Both the position numbers and the translations under genes were made by a program. A stretch of DNA of 64,000 bases, from positions 62,001-126,000 of the forward strand of contig NZ_NESG01000007.1 of the NCBI RefSeq assembly GCF_002778275.1, read 5' to 3'. Below are positions 8,547-12,614 of the stretch, piece by piece (the stretch's first letter is position 1; the number at the start of each line of letters is the position of its first letter). The notes under the pieces are model-generated. The model worked only from the letters and a program-made list of their open reading frames with translations, searched no databases and was not told the DNA's origin. This DNA comes from Limnohabitans sp. G3-2. Its GTDB lineage: Bacteria; Pseudomonadota; Gammaproteobacteria; Burkholderiales; Burkholderiaceae_C.

Positions 8547-10030
8547 GTTGTGGGGCCTGCCGCTGGGTCCGCCTCAGGCGCGGGGCGCGTTGCGGGCGTG
8601 GGCGTCAGGTTCAGGTCGAGGTTGGCAAACTGCGGCGGCAAACCGGAAGGCAAAGGCGGACGTTCAAGCTGAACTTCATGCTGCGGGCCTGTGGTGAAAG
8701 ACGCGCCCGGTTGACGCGGTAAACCGCTGGCAGCATGCTCGGCAAACAAGGGATGGCTGCTGCTTGGGCGTCGTCTGGCCCACCACACCCAGCCCAACAT
8801 GCCGCTGAAAAGCGCCAGAGCCCAAGCCCAGATGGCCGAGCTGGCGCTGATTTTTTCCAACAAAGATGAGGGCTGCGTTGTCGCGACAGCCAGGGGCACG
8901 TTGGGGGCGGAAGTCTGGCGCTCAGTCGGGGCACTCGCCTGAGCTGGATCGGCCACAGGCGGGCTGGAGGCCGACAAGGACTTGAGTGTGTCCAGGTTTT
9001 TTTTGAGCGCTGCCAGTTGTTCTGTTTTGTCCTGAATTTCTCTTTCAACGGCCAATCGGGCTTCGTCGGAATCCTTGCCGGCTTCACGTTTGCTGAGCGT
9101 CAAGGTGTCTTTGGCCGCAAGCGGCGCCGTCGGTGTGGGCTCAGCGGGGCTGAGTTTGCCAGCCATTTCACGGCTGGCCGTGTCGGGCGCTTTGAGCGCC
9201 GATTGCGCCAGCCGGCGGGCATAAGCCACAAAATCCACGGTTTGCGCCACCACGGTTTGCCGGGCTTCTTCGGCTGAAATTTGAGCGGCTTCTTGCGCAC
9301 TGGGCCGTTGAACTTGAGCGCCTTCACGCAACAGGTTCACATTGCCCTCTATGAAGGCCTCTGGGTTGGCACGCACCATGGCCAAGAGCATTTGCTCCAG
9401 CGTGACGCCCGCAGGCAAAGGGCGCACAAGCAGGCCGGTGGCGGTATCCCCTGCCCGCACCTTGACGGTTTCTGGGGGACGCGGGTTGTCTGCCCGCGCG
9501 ACAGGGTTGGCCACGGCGGCCAAAGCCAGTGGGGCGACCACAGGGGAGGTGACCTCTCCCTCCGATGGCGTTGGGGCGGGGCGTTGGGCGACGGCGCCAA
9601 CGGGGGAGACCAGCAAGGTGTAATTCCTGGCCAAGCGGCCCGAAGGCCACTGCGCCTCCACAATCACATCGATGAAGTGCTCGTTGACGGGTGTCAACCC
9701 TGTCAAGGCGATGAAGGGTTTGCCGTCGCCGCGAAACTCGAGGCTGGTCTGCAAACCGTTCAAGGCAGGATGGAAGGCCATTTGGGCCTGCTCGTAGCTG
9801 GCCAAGGAGGCTGGCTGCAGCTTGAGCCTGCGTAAATCCTCGACCTTGTACTGCGTGATTTCAATCGCCGCCCGAAGCGGCTGTCCGATGCCCGACTCCA
9901 CCGACACCTGACCCAATGTCAAAGCCAGCGCGCACGGGCTGGCCATGGCCATGGCCAAAGTCAATCCCAGGCGCAGGCCCAACACCTGCGGATCAGGGGG
10001 TGGTCGCAGACGCATCGGCCGAAAAAGCAT
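8543..10030 (-). CDS. fimV: FimV-like protein (short form)
   Basis: 495 residues. FimV family proteins are inner-membrane, peptidoglycan-binding scaffolds needed for type IV pilus assembly and polar organisation. Seen here: an N-terminal signal peptide to about residue 37, the conserved FimV N-terminal domain (LTLGQVSVESGIGQPLRAAI), a LysM-like stretch (RAGDTATGLLVRPLPAGVTL), a coiled coil near 345-375 and one membrane span at about 400-418 (IWAWALALFSGMLGWVWWAR). The long acidic TPR-type cytoplasmic tail of Pseudomonas FimV is missing; only about 75 Pro-rich residues follow the span. The ATG at 10030 overlaps the asd stop as TGATG. Confidence 0.88.
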   Translation of the reverse strand: MLFRPMRLRPPPDPQVLGLRLGLTLAMAMASPCALALTLGQVSVESGIGQPLRAAIEITQYKVEDLRRLKLQPASLASYEQAQMAFHPALNGLQTSLEFRGDGKPFIALTGLTPVNEHFIDVIVEAQWPSGRLARNYTLLVSPVGAVAQRPAPTPSEGEVTSPVVAPLALAAVANPVARADNPRPPETVKVRAGDTATGLLVRPLPAGVTLEQMLLAMVRANPEAFIEGNVNLLREGAQVQRPSAQEAAQISAEEARQTVVAQTVDFVAYARRLAQSALKAPDTASREMAGKLSPAEPTPTAPLAAKDTLTLSKREAGKDSDEARLAVEREIQDKTEQLAALKKNLDTLKSLSASSPPVADPAQASAPTERQTSAPNVPLAVATTQPSSLLEKISASSAIWAWALALFSGMLGWVWWARRRPSSSHPLFAEHAASGLPRQPGASFTTGPQHEVQLERPPLPSGLPPQFANLDLNLTPTPATRPAPEADPAAGPTT

Positions 10031-11187
10031 CAAGCGTCCAACAAGATGCGCAGCATGCGACGCAGCGGCTCGGCCGCGCCCCACAGCAGCTGGTCACCGA
10101 TGGTGAACGCGCCGACATACTCTGGGCCCATGGCCAGTTTGCGCACACGGCCCACGGGAATGGTCATGGTGCCGGTCACGGCCACAGGGGTCAGGTCCTG
10201 GAGGGTGGCTTCGCGGGTGTTGGGCACCACTTTGACCCACGCGTTGTCGGCGGCGATCATGGCTTCGATGTCGGCCACAGGCACGTCTTTTTTCAGTTTG
10301 AAGGTCAGGGCTTGGCTGTGGCAGCGCATGGCGCCCACGCGCACGCAGAAACCGTCCACGGGAATGGCCGCCGAGTTGAAACCCTCGCCCAGACCCAAGA
10401 TCTTGTTGGTTTCGGCCATGCCTTTCCACTCTTCCTTGGACGTGCCCCAACCGGCTTCGTCCCGGTTTTTGCCGATACCCAGGTCCTTGTCGATCCAAGG
10501 GATCAGCGAGCCGCCCAGTGGCACGCCAAAGTTGGCGGTCTCGGCGCCTGTCAGGGCGCGTTGCTTGGCAATGACTTTGCGGTCGATTTCCAAAATAGCG
10601 CTCTTGGGGTCGTCCAGCAGGGCTTTGACTTCGGCGTTCAGCGTGCCGTATTGGGTCAGCAACTCGCGCATGTGCTGCGCACCACCGCCCGAAGCCGCTT
10701 GGTAAGTCTGGGTGCTCATCCATTCGACGAGGCCGGCTTTGTACAAAGCGCCCACGCCCATCAACATGCACGAGACGGTGCAGTTGCCGCCCACCCAGTT
10801 GTTGCCGCCGTGCGCCAAGGCGTTCTTGATCACGGGCATGTTGACCGGATCCAAGATGATCACGGCGTCTTTTTCCATGCGCAGGGTCGATGCGGCATCG
10901 ATCCAGTGGCCATTCCAGCCGGCAGCGCGCAGCTTGGGGAACACTTCAGAGGTGTAGTCGCCGCCTTGGGCGGTGATGATGATCTCGCAGCGCTTGAGCT
11001 GCTCGATGTTGAAGGCGTCTTGCAGCGTGGTTTCGTTCTTGGCCATCGAGGGGGCTTTGCCGCCCGAGTTCGATGTGGAGAAGAACAAGGGCTCGATCAG
11101 GTCAAAGTCTTTTTCCTGAATCATGCGGTCCATCAGAACCGAGCCGACCATGCCGCGCCAGCCAACCAAACCTACCAACTTGCTCAT
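10030..11187 (-). CDS. asd: Aspartate-semialdehyde dehydrogenase
   Basis: 385 residues, the long proteobacterial type. NADPH-dependent reduction of aspartyl phosphate to aspartate semialdehyde, the branch point to lysine/diaminopimelate, threonine, isoleucine and methionine. NADP-binding [11 protein letters not shown] at the N-terminus; catalytic Cys136 in [11 protein letters not shown]; the active-site His lies in [13 protein letters not shown]. The Shine-Dalgarno AAAGGG is 6-11 bases upstream. The 90-base leader upstream follows a short Thr/Ile/Lys-coding ORF and can form alternative hairpins, which suggests attenuation. Confidence 0.97.
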
Positions 11188-11207
11188 TTCATTGCCCTTT
11201 CAAAGTT

Positions 11208-11298
11208 AAACAGTGTGAGACCTGACTGTTTGCCCCGGCTCGTCTGGCCGGGGAGGGCGCACGACGAACCAGAGCCCTTAGCCCTTAATGGTCGTCGT
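11208..11298 (-). promoter_or_regulatory. Putative attenuator leader of asd (alternative hairpins)
   Basis: Between the leader peptide and asd the minus-strand RNA can form mutually exclusive pairs. The Thr codons ACGACGACC (complement of 11290-11298) pair with GGUUCGUCGU (11261-11270). The GUUCGUC part of that segment can instead pair with GACGAGC (11236-11245 region). GACGAGC overlaps the GC hairpin CCCCGGC / GCCGGGG (arms 11247-11253 and 11233-11239). A further hairpin AAACAGU / ACUGUUU (11225-11231 and 11208-11214) sits just before the asd Shine-Dalgarno. No clear U tract follows the GC hairpin, so control could act on translation rather than by intrinsic termination. Confidence 0.5.
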
Positions 11299-11379
11299 TT
11301 TGATGGTGATTGCACGCACACCGACAGCCACTGCAGCGGCAGTGTTGACGTTCAGGGAGAACAGGTGTGCGTGGAACAT
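11278..11379 (-). CDS. Leader peptide upstream of asd (33 codons, Thr/Ile/Lys-rich end)
   Basis: A 33-residue ORF starting MFHAHLFSLNV and ending AITIKTTTIKG, stop TAA 90 bases before the asd ATG. Nine of the ten residues before the final Gly, counting ITIKTTTIK, are Thr (4), Ile (3) or Lys (2), exactly the amino acids made downstream of aspartate semialdehyde. This composition and position resemble attenuator peptides such as ThrL. No Shine-Dalgarno is visible; a TACAAT box lies 7 bases before the ATG, so a transcript could begin at or next to the start codon. Recognition is by composition and context only. Confidence 0.6.
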   Translation of the reverse strand: MFHAHLFSLNVNTAAAVAVGVRAITIKTTTIKG

Positions 11380-11435
11380 GGGCGAAATTGTAATGGATGC
11401 GGCCTGAGTGCTTCCTGACAGCATCCTTGGGTGGT

Positions 11436-12521
11436 TCAACCCAGTGCTTTGACCACGGCATCGCCCATTTGTGCGGTGCCCACCTTGGTGGTGCCTTCGC
11501 TCCAGATGTCGCCGGTGCGCAGCCCCTGGGCCAGCACTTTTTGCACCGCGGCTTCGATGCGCTGGGCAGCTTCGGGCTGGTTCAGGCTGAAGCGCAGCAT
11601 CATCGCCGCCGACAAGATGGTGGCCAGTGGGTTGGCCACGCCTTTGCCCGCGATGTCGGGGGCGCTGCCGTGGCTGGGCTCGTACAGGCCCTGGTTTTTC
11701 GTGTTGAGGCTGGCCGAGGGCAGCATGCCGATCGAGCCGGTGAGCATGGAGGCTTCGTCGCTCAGGATGTCGCCAAACATATTGCCCGTGACCACCACGT
11801 CAAAACGCTTGGGTTCTTTGACCAGTTGCATGGCGGCGTTGTCCACATACATGTGGTCCAGCGCGATGTCGGGGTATTCTTTGCCGACTTCGGTGACCAC
11901 GTCTTTCCAGAACTGGAAGGTTTCCAGCACGTTGGCTTTGTCCACGCTGGTCACACGGCCTTCTGTGCCGGCGGCTTTGCGCTTGCGCGCGGCCTGGAAG
12001 GCGACGTGCGCGATGCGTTCGATCTCGGGCTTGGAGTAGCGCATGGTGTCAAACGCTTCTTCGGCGCCGGGGAAGTGGCCATCGGTGGCGATGCGGCGGC
12101 CGCGCGGCTGGCCAAAGTAGATGTCGCCCGTCAGCTCGCGGATGATCAGGATGTCCAGACCCGAGATCAACTCGGGCTTCAGGCTCGATGCCCCCACCAA
12201 CTGCTCGTAGCAAATGGCCGGGCGGAAGTTGGCGAACAGGCCCATGTTTTTGCGCAGGCCCAAAATGGCTTGCTCGGGGCGCAAAGGCCGGTCGAGCTTG
12301 TCGTATTTCCAGTCGCCCACCGCACCAAACAGCACGGCGTCACTGTCCATGGCCAGCTTGAGCGTGGCTTCGGGCAGGGGGTGGCCATAGGCGTCGTAGG
12401 CGGCACCACCGACCAGGGCGGTTTCCATCTCGAACTTCAGCCCGAGGGTGTTGAGGACTTTGACGGCTTCGGCGACGATTTCGGTGCCGATGCCATCACC
12501 GGGGAGGACTGCGATTTTCAT
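11436..12521 (-). CDS. leuB: 3-isopropylmalate dehydrogenase
   Basis: 361 residues. Oxidative decarboxylation of 3-isopropylmalate to 2-oxoisocaproate in leucine synthesis, NAD-dependent. Seen: [16 protein letters not shown] at the N-terminus, the substrate-binding [14 protein letters not shown], and the metal/NAD region [20 protein letters not shown] followed by [14 protein letters not shown]. The ATG at 12521 is chosen; the open frame upstream runs through the REP-like element. It follows leuD after 93 bases. Confidence 0.97.
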
Positions 12522-12537
12522 GTTCACTGACTCTGCT

Positions 12538-12600
12538 GTGGGAGGCCGCCCCTGCGGCCGAGATATGGGCGTGCATTCGGCTGCAGGGGCAGCCTCCCAC
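12538..12600. repeat. REP-like palindromic repeat, copy B
   Basis: Lies in the leuD-leuB gap. Left arm GTGGGAGGCCGCCCCTGC, right arm GCAGGGGCAGCCTCCCAC, 27 bases between. The right arm differs from copy A (5617-5691) at two or three positions. Both copies sit inside amino acid operons, between genes and not in them. Confidence 0.75.
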
Positions 12601-12614
12601 AAGGGGTGCTTGGG

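Follow-up and report, generated by a model that had tools for sequence, protein, structure and literature searches.

A conserved Thr/Ile/Lys-codon leader before asd in the Comamonadaceae, a predicted translational attenuator whose codons close the leuB gene in many relatives

Why should a short reading frame that ends in a run of Thr, Ile and Lys codons lie directly in front of asd in Limnohabitans sp. G3-2? The window (the whole 64,000-nucleotide stretch of DNA that was analysed) carries on its minus strand, to which all feature coordinates below refer, the gene order leuC, leuD, leuB, leader ORF, asd, fimV-like gene, truA, trpF and trpB; all eight proteins encoded by the named genes score above the cut-off of the same-named NCBIfam models. 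leuB (11436..12602; TIGR00169 leuB above cut-off) ends here in ...GDAVVKALG and a stop codon, without a control tail, and asd (10030..11187; TIGR01745 asd_gamma above cut-off), the gene proposed to be regulated, encodes an aspartate-semialdehyde dehydrogenase of 385 aa. Threonine, isoleucine, lysine and methionine all derive from the Asd product. The leader ORF (11278..11379) extends from an ATG at 11379 to a TAA at 11280-11278, consists of 33 codons that translate as MFHAHLFSLNVNTAAAVAVGVRAITIKTTTIKG, and is separated from the asd ATG (11187) by 90 bases (11277-11188). Its control codons, ATC ACC ATC AAA ACG ACG ACC ATT AAG (11284..11310), specify I T I K T T T I K. An earlier note on this DNA had described the ORF, its TAA, its distance from asd and the nine consecutive Thr, Ile or Lys residues, and both the positions and the translation bear this out.

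A -10-like promoter box, TACAAT (11387..11392), is found 7 nt 5′ of the leader ATG. Among 112 loci with a separate leader, a TANNNT box is present 6-9 nt before the start in 107 (86 of these as TACAAT) and missing in 5, whereas at a control offset of 16-19 nt before the candidate start such a box occurs in 6 of the 112. The spacing of 6-9 nt predicts a transcript start at or beside the ATG, and with a transcript that starts there no Shine-Dalgarno (SD) sequence is expected on the leader. SD-like bases precede 2 of 107 leaders, in agreement with the absence of an SD that the earlier note had held against the ORF. As judged from the box spacing, the leader ORF is probably leaderless, i.e. translated from an mRNA whose predicted 5′ end coincides with the A of its ATG or adjoins it.

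The extent to which the element is conserved was examined in a DNA search of 100 genomes, including the window's own, of which 57 matched and 30 of these were retrieved; the close alignment (n = 31) comprises the window's own sequence, 29 relatives from this search and locus L032. The TACAAT box, the ORF and the downstream segments are kept in 31 of 31 aligned sequences. The peptide end KTTTIKG is present in 29, and the two others differ by exchanges among Thr, Ile and Lys only (KTTTITG in L019, KTTTTKG in L030). The middle of the leader peptide varies freely and its end is conserved, and TGA, TAA and TAG all serve as the stop codon. In these aligned sequences the conservation of the ORF and its run is far beyond chance. 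On a wider scale, the window's family is represented by 349 genomes; a covariance model (R1) detects the element in 215 of them, spread over 103 of 141 genera, and across 250 genomes of the order it gives 7 matches, every one of them in that family. As far as genome comparison reaches, the element is a family-wide feature rather than a local oddity, and in many relatives it is the end of leuB itself. A search with the exact tail pattern had matched 2 of 399 genomes and missed the window itself, which is attributed to the demand for TKTTTIKG and to only 12 rows of the draw lying in the window's family; it was replaced by R1 and by a pattern without the tail. Three separate leaders (L129, L130 and L133) are unusually distant from asd (146-159 nt). 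The element is also carried by contigs titled Anaerolineae (L197), Chitinophaga pinensis (L227) and Akkermansia muciniphila (L254), and their bins or titles are therefore probably contaminated or wrong.

Codon content was counted over 133 loci that were found via R1 or DNA similarity and freed of duplicates, 112 with a separate leader and 21 in which the run is a LeuB tail. In the nine codons before the last, Thr accounts for 48.4%, Lys for 21.2% and Ile for 18.0% (together 88%), compared with 13% for the three residues together in the background of residues -30 to -13. Lys is present in the run of 133 of 133 loci, Ile in 132 and at least three Thr in 131, and Met is absent from it save for one M among the 133 final decamers. 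Frameshifts or random replacement of the Thr, Ile and Lys codons, named beforehand as the observations that would speak against a leader, are not what is found: none of the 31 aligned sequences has lost the frame, and T, I or K account for 790 of the 798 residues that fill the six positions ahead of the final one in the 133 loci. In this count the stop with the most T/I/K codons was chosen and the loci came from a model that includes the tail, and the count was therefore repeated on a tail-blind scan, whose pattern uses the RNA segments only and ignores the control codons except for the last GGC and the stop. At least 120 loci were returned. Among the matches listed, 101 precede asd, and 101 of 101 contain 5-9 T/I/K codons of nine (5 in 2 loci, 6 in 5, 7 in 33, 8 in 43 and 9 in 18); elsewhere, 17 of 17 among those listed contain 0-2 of nine, and 2 more matches are incomplete. 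Named hosts of the asd-linked matches include, under Comamonadaceae, Limnohabitans, Hydrogenophaga, Acidovorax, Comamonas testosteroni, Curvibacter, Ramlibacter, Simplicispira, Malikia, Variovorax, Polaromonas and Rhodoferax, and in addition Xylophilus, Brachymonas and Tepidimonas. A short ORF in which codons for the pathway's products follow one another, as in amino acid leader-peptide attenuators of the thr/trp/his/leu kind, is thus present in both counts, and its conservation at the level of codons suggests that it is translated.

The residues of the run come in many orders. Over the 133 loci there are 82 distinct final decamers in which T, I and K are permuted (ITKTITKG, TTKTKITTG, ITKKTTKG etc.), which indicates that codon content, and not one arrest peptide, is conserved. 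The same permutations weigh against the alternative that stalling is brought about by the nascent peptide itself, in the manner of TnaC, with a free metabolite as the signal instead of uncharged tRNA. Such an arrest would be in keeping with the Gly that is the last residue in 127 of 133 loci and with the common ending KTTTIKG, but it would have to tolerate 82 different ends and, where the run is a LeuB tail, an unrelated nascent chain leading up to it, and we regard it as very unlikely.

Downstream of the run, folds, alignment and pair comparisons define the RNA segments of the element. Segment 1, ACGACGACCA (11289..11298), is a potential partner of segment 2, CUGGUUCGUC (11263..11272), and segment 2 can form a 10-bp helix with segment 3, GACGAGCCGG (11235..11244), which is common to this 2:3 helix and to the 3:4 hairpin CCCCGGC...GCCGGGG (11233..11253). 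The anti-SD segment GCGCCCU (11254..11260) pairs through its GCCCU with AGGGC (11198-11194) in the asd SD, GAAAGGGC (11194..11201), and a second hairpin, AAACAGT...ACTGTTT (11208..11231), adjoins the SD. The two pairings proposed in the earlier note, of the Thr codons with GGTTCGTCGT (11270-11261, downstream of the leader stop) and of GGTTCGTCGT with GACGAGC (11244-11238) inside the GC hairpin (11253-11247 / 11239-11233), were both located. Its arrangement of classic 1:2, 2:3 and 3:4 helices holds in part: 2:3 and 3:4 are supported, and helix 1:2 is strong in the minimum-energy fold of the window, but on average it is weak in the family (about 2.6 expected pairs). This weakness bears on the alternative that the locus is a conserved RNA element which binds a ligand or a protein, the T/I/K codons being a by-product of segment 1 pairing. 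Segment 1 does overlap the control codons and the RNA is strongly conserved, yet the run exceeds segment 1 in length, its replacements remain T, I or K, and frame and stop are kept with three different stop codons; given the weak 1:2 pairing as well, this alternative appears highly improbable.

Helix 2:3 is conserved across the family, with standard pairs in 1319 of 1330 cells in an anchored count over the 133 loci (a structural alignment was too gappy and was left out of the pair counts). In its variable column the pairs are U:G in 47, C:G in 69, U:A in 14 and G:G in 3 loci, and C:A never occurs; wherever segment 3 carries A (14 loci), segment 2 carries U, and L115 shows a double change from C-G to U-A. 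When partners were shuffled, pairs 6-10 reached 660 of 665 in the real loci, and none of 2000 shuffles exceeded 658. The core five pairs gave no support (659 of 665, with shuffles averaging 658 and reaching 660), and shuffling is uninformative here because the core pairs hardly vary. The same segment 3 base pairs in the variable column of helix 3:4 as G:C in 99, G:U in 18 and A:U in 13 loci, with A:C in 1 and 2 unread. RNAalifold detected no double changes among 27 pairs in the 31 close sequences, which are too similar for this purpose. For anti-SD:SD a locus was counted if GCC follows segment 2 and GGC lies within the SD window, which holds for 121 of 133 loci; of the 12 loci not in register, 11 are without GGC at the SD position set by the assumed asd start codon. 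Compensated changes in the anti-SD:SD helix occur in L011 and L029, and at the pair beside its core 16 loci have A in the SD, with the matching U in 4 and C in 12. Covariation is weak, own partners giving -11.48 kcal/mol and swapped partners -11.26 kcal/mol; swaps were as good as own partners in 1 of 500 overall, in 4 of 500 for the separate class and in 123 of 500 for the 21 LeuB-tail loci. Own partners are far better than letter-shuffled segments (-11.48 versus -8.42 kcal/mol). Compensatory changes, which had been suggested as support for the pairings, are therefore a mixed result, being present in helix 2:3 (L115, and A always with U), not detected by RNAalifold in the 31 close sequences and weak in anti-SD:SD. 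The predicted sequestering structure is a three-way junction, whose closing helix, anti-SD:SD, encloses the 3:4 hairpin together with the second hairpin adjoining the SD.

What would such a switch act on? The note had pointed out that the GC hairpin has no clear U tract, and this extends to the family: 0, 1, 2 and 3 U are found in the nine bases 3′ of the 3:4 hairpin at 31, 87, 12 and 3 of 133 loci, respectively. With no U tract there is no intrinsic terminator, and the element is not classed as a transcription attenuator; a readout on translation, which is the likely one, makes a U tract unnecessary. To follow the RNA ahead of the ribosome, folds were computed for each A-site codon at the 112 separate-leader loci and at 20 LeuB-tail loci (L120 was left out). 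When codons -5 to -2 (in the common form Thr, Thr, Ile, Lys) occupy the A site, helix 2:3 is present with at least 5 bp in 85, 83, 83 and 74% of the 112 loci, and this falls to 16% at the last codon and to 0% at the stop. The anti-SD:SD helix (at least 3 expected bp) takes the opposite course, from 12-21% at codons -5 to -2 to 80% at -1 and 91% at the stop, and in the stalled state the asd SD is mostly free in the predicted folds. Mutually exclusive helices chosen by ribosome position are therefore present in the computed folds. Opening the SD costs on average 4.39 kcal/mol more at the stop than in the stalled state, with 89% of the 112 loci above 1 kcal/mol, whereas dinucleotide shuffles of this class give a mean of 0.01 kcal/mol and 23%; because the loci are related, no P value is given as a probability. 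Against this, with 30 nt of asd included instead of 6, the median SD costs differ by just 1.2-1.7 kcal/mol in the separate class. For the 21 LeuB-tail loci the mean difference is 2.41 kcal/mol (71% above 1) as compared with 0.32 (32%) for shuffles. Exposure of the SD that depends on the stall is in this sense a computed property of the element, seen in the folds of the separate class and weak in the LeuB class, with weak covariation of the anti-SD:SD helix.

The folds also define how the OFF state would have to arise. Without a ribosome, RNAs of the separate class are predicted to be mostly ON, as helix 2:3 persists in 67% of the 112 loci and anti-SD:SD forms in 29%, and OFF would thus depend on kinetic trapping or on a ribosome positioned at the stop. 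For the LeuB class a mostly OFF state is predicted even when stalled, with helix 2:3 in 20% of 20 loci, and switching in this class may need co-transcriptional folding. In the alternative modelled on E. coli thr, transcription would end before asd when amino acids are plentiful, either at the 3:4 hairpin or, once translation is lost, through Rho. The order of the 1:2, 2:3 and 3:4 helices resembles that of attenuators of the thr/trp type, and the C-rich untranslated RNA between the leader stop and asd could load Rho; against this stand the 0-3 U in nine bases at 133 of 133 loci and the prediction that this state also buries the asd SD, and termination is on balance unlikely. From the folds, the readout is probably sequestration of the asd SD and not transcription termination. 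The attenuator type given in the earlier note is hence retained as regards the leader and the exclusive helices, and changed as regards the probable readout.

Taken together, we infer with a probability of roughly 0.77 that the element is a ribosome-mediated attenuator that would sense charged tRNA for Thr, Ile and Lys and act on the initiation of asd translation. This agrees with the proposal of the earlier note that a Thr/Ile/Lys-codon leader controls asd via competing hairpins, a proposal supported by sequence comparison and folding, with a predicted response to starvation. In the window, the promoter 7 nt upstream would give a leaderless mRNA that begins with the leader ORF. When Thr, Ile or Lys is short, the ribosome would stall in the run, segments 2 and 3 would pair and the asd SD would be open (ON). 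In good supply, the ribosome would reach the final Gly or stop codon and cover segment 2, segment 3 would join the 3:4 hairpin, and the GCGCCC segment would pair with the SD (OFF). Where asd follows leuB without a leader of its own, the last leuB codons would be the control codons and LeuB itself the leader peptide.

This second architecture is a feature of the sequences themselves. A separate leader is missing from 21 of the 133 loci, and there the run forms the end of LeuB (...EMGDAVVAAITKTTIKG, ...AITKTITKG or ITKTTIKG, each followed by the stop) before segments 2, anti-SD, 3 and 4 and asd; among the matches listed, 15 of 101 asd-linked tail-blind matches have this form. LeuB-tail loci were called by an in-frame motif, and one full LeuB with a tail (G030) was compared with the family model. 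Further cases came from a sample of 20 of the 134 family genomes that R1 does not match, in which asd was matched in 19 and the upstream DNA was readable in 17 (1 without an asd match, 2 on truncated contigs). A LeuB tail, taken as at least 5 T/I/K in ten residues, is present in 9 of the 17 readable genomes and degenerate in 1 (L157), and no T/I/K tail was found in 7 (L149, L154, L155, L159, L161, L162 and L163). Six of these seven show a plain LeuB end 16-64 nt before asd, and none was seen in L162. In the window's genus, four species carry the tail, namely G771 (one of the nine) and G001, G006 and G030, which were counted apart from this sample and end in ...GEAVVKAITKTTKS and the stop. The loci with a LeuB Thr/Ile/Lys tail before asd are L105-L108, L111-L113, L116, L117, L119, L120, L122, L123, L125, L127, L128, L131, L132, L134, L137, L138, L144-L148, L150-L153, L156, L158 and L160.

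The tail might instead be a feature of the LeuB protein, with its link to asd accidental, and it is indeed translated as part of the enzyme. However, its codon set and the downstream segments 2, anti-SD, 3 and 4 match those of the separate leaders, and LeuB-like ends are short and plain in 25 of 30 loci from other families (one per family). Of the 375 residues of the full G030 LeuB, the family model takes in 16-364, which leaves the run ITKTTKS in the C-terminal remainder. A role confined to the protein consequently seems rather improbable for these loci. Conversely, the leuB end was not found upstream, by the motif test, in 51 of 111 readable separate-leader loci; a free leader that travels with asd in the absence of leuB is expected if the leader exists for asd. 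One of these 51, L002, has other DNA upstream. On an asd gene tree (199 rows, FastTree), at least 16 changes between the architectures are needed, compared with a mean of 24.6 and a minimum of 21 for shuffled labels; as the asd tree splits the family, neither the number nor the direction of switches is claimed. We consider it fairly likely that the C-terminal LeuB tail (ITKTTIKG and variants) makes ribosomes test the supply of Thr, Ile and Lys at the end of leuB and so sets asd translation, and that in evolution this form and a separate, leaderless leader ORF of the same codons have replaced each other on more than one occasion.

A T/I/K leader ORF was also present in one of the 30 loci from other families (L168). 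In this second family, all three genomes (L168, L317 and L318) have T/I/K-rich ORFs before asd with different helices. The run of L168 also codes for Met (IITKTVMKG), and the SD-like AGGAAGA precedes its leader. This leader looks like an independent or strongly diverged solution.

The nearest familiar system is ThrL, the attenuator of the enterobacterial thr operon, which likewise combines a run of Thr and Ile codons and alternative hairpins with genes of the aspartate family. The asd element differs from it in the missing U tract, the predicted translational readout, the additional Lys codons, the target gene asd, the absence of a leader SD and the lack of an Rfam match: an Rfam 15 covariance-model search of 10900-11700 gave a chance-level snoRNA match only, and no Thr_leader or other family. 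In erm/cat translational attenuators a stalled leader ribosome likewise exposes the SD of the next gene, whereas the asd leader would sense amino acid supply through its codon content and not an antibiotic. The part of PMC7298713 available to us describes Sinorhizobium meliloti trpL as leaderless, the transcript 5′ end being the ATG of the leader peptide ORF; the start is alike, but trpL has Trp codons and transcription attenuation. For rph-pyrE of E. coli, the available text of PMC2784333 describes how translating the end of the upstream enzyme gene affects the next gene, through a uracil-linked coupling of translation to the attenuator loop, and that text does not describe amino-acid control codons in the upstream gene. 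An actinobacterial LEU element, a Leu-codon leader paired with the SD, and tRNA-sensing T-boxes that sequester the SD are predictions in the available portion of PMC1262725; structure and taxon differ from those of the asd element, and codon sensing is deemed unlikely there for LEU. The term 'asd' is absent from the main text of PMC2965389 as available, and a literature search (titles and abstract starts, partial coverage) returned neither a Thr/Ile/Lys leader before asd nor a LeuB-tail leader.

Amino acid leader peptides, attenuators that expose an SD, leaderless leaders and effects of gene-end translation on the next gene are already known. What appears to be new, being absent from Rfam 15 and from the literature search within its partial coverage of titles and abstract starts, is a combined Thr, Ile and Lys leader before asd with a probable translational readout, and above all an enzyme tail as the putative leader. 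If this is true, a single attenuator would monitor three end products of one branched pathway simultaneously and act on translation, and LeuB would be an enzyme whose last residues serve gene regulation and not the enzyme. The control of asd, the way LeuB ends are annotated and the production of amino acids by Comamonadaceae would thereby become testable, and the family would offer a natural series of forms, from in-gene to free-standing leader.
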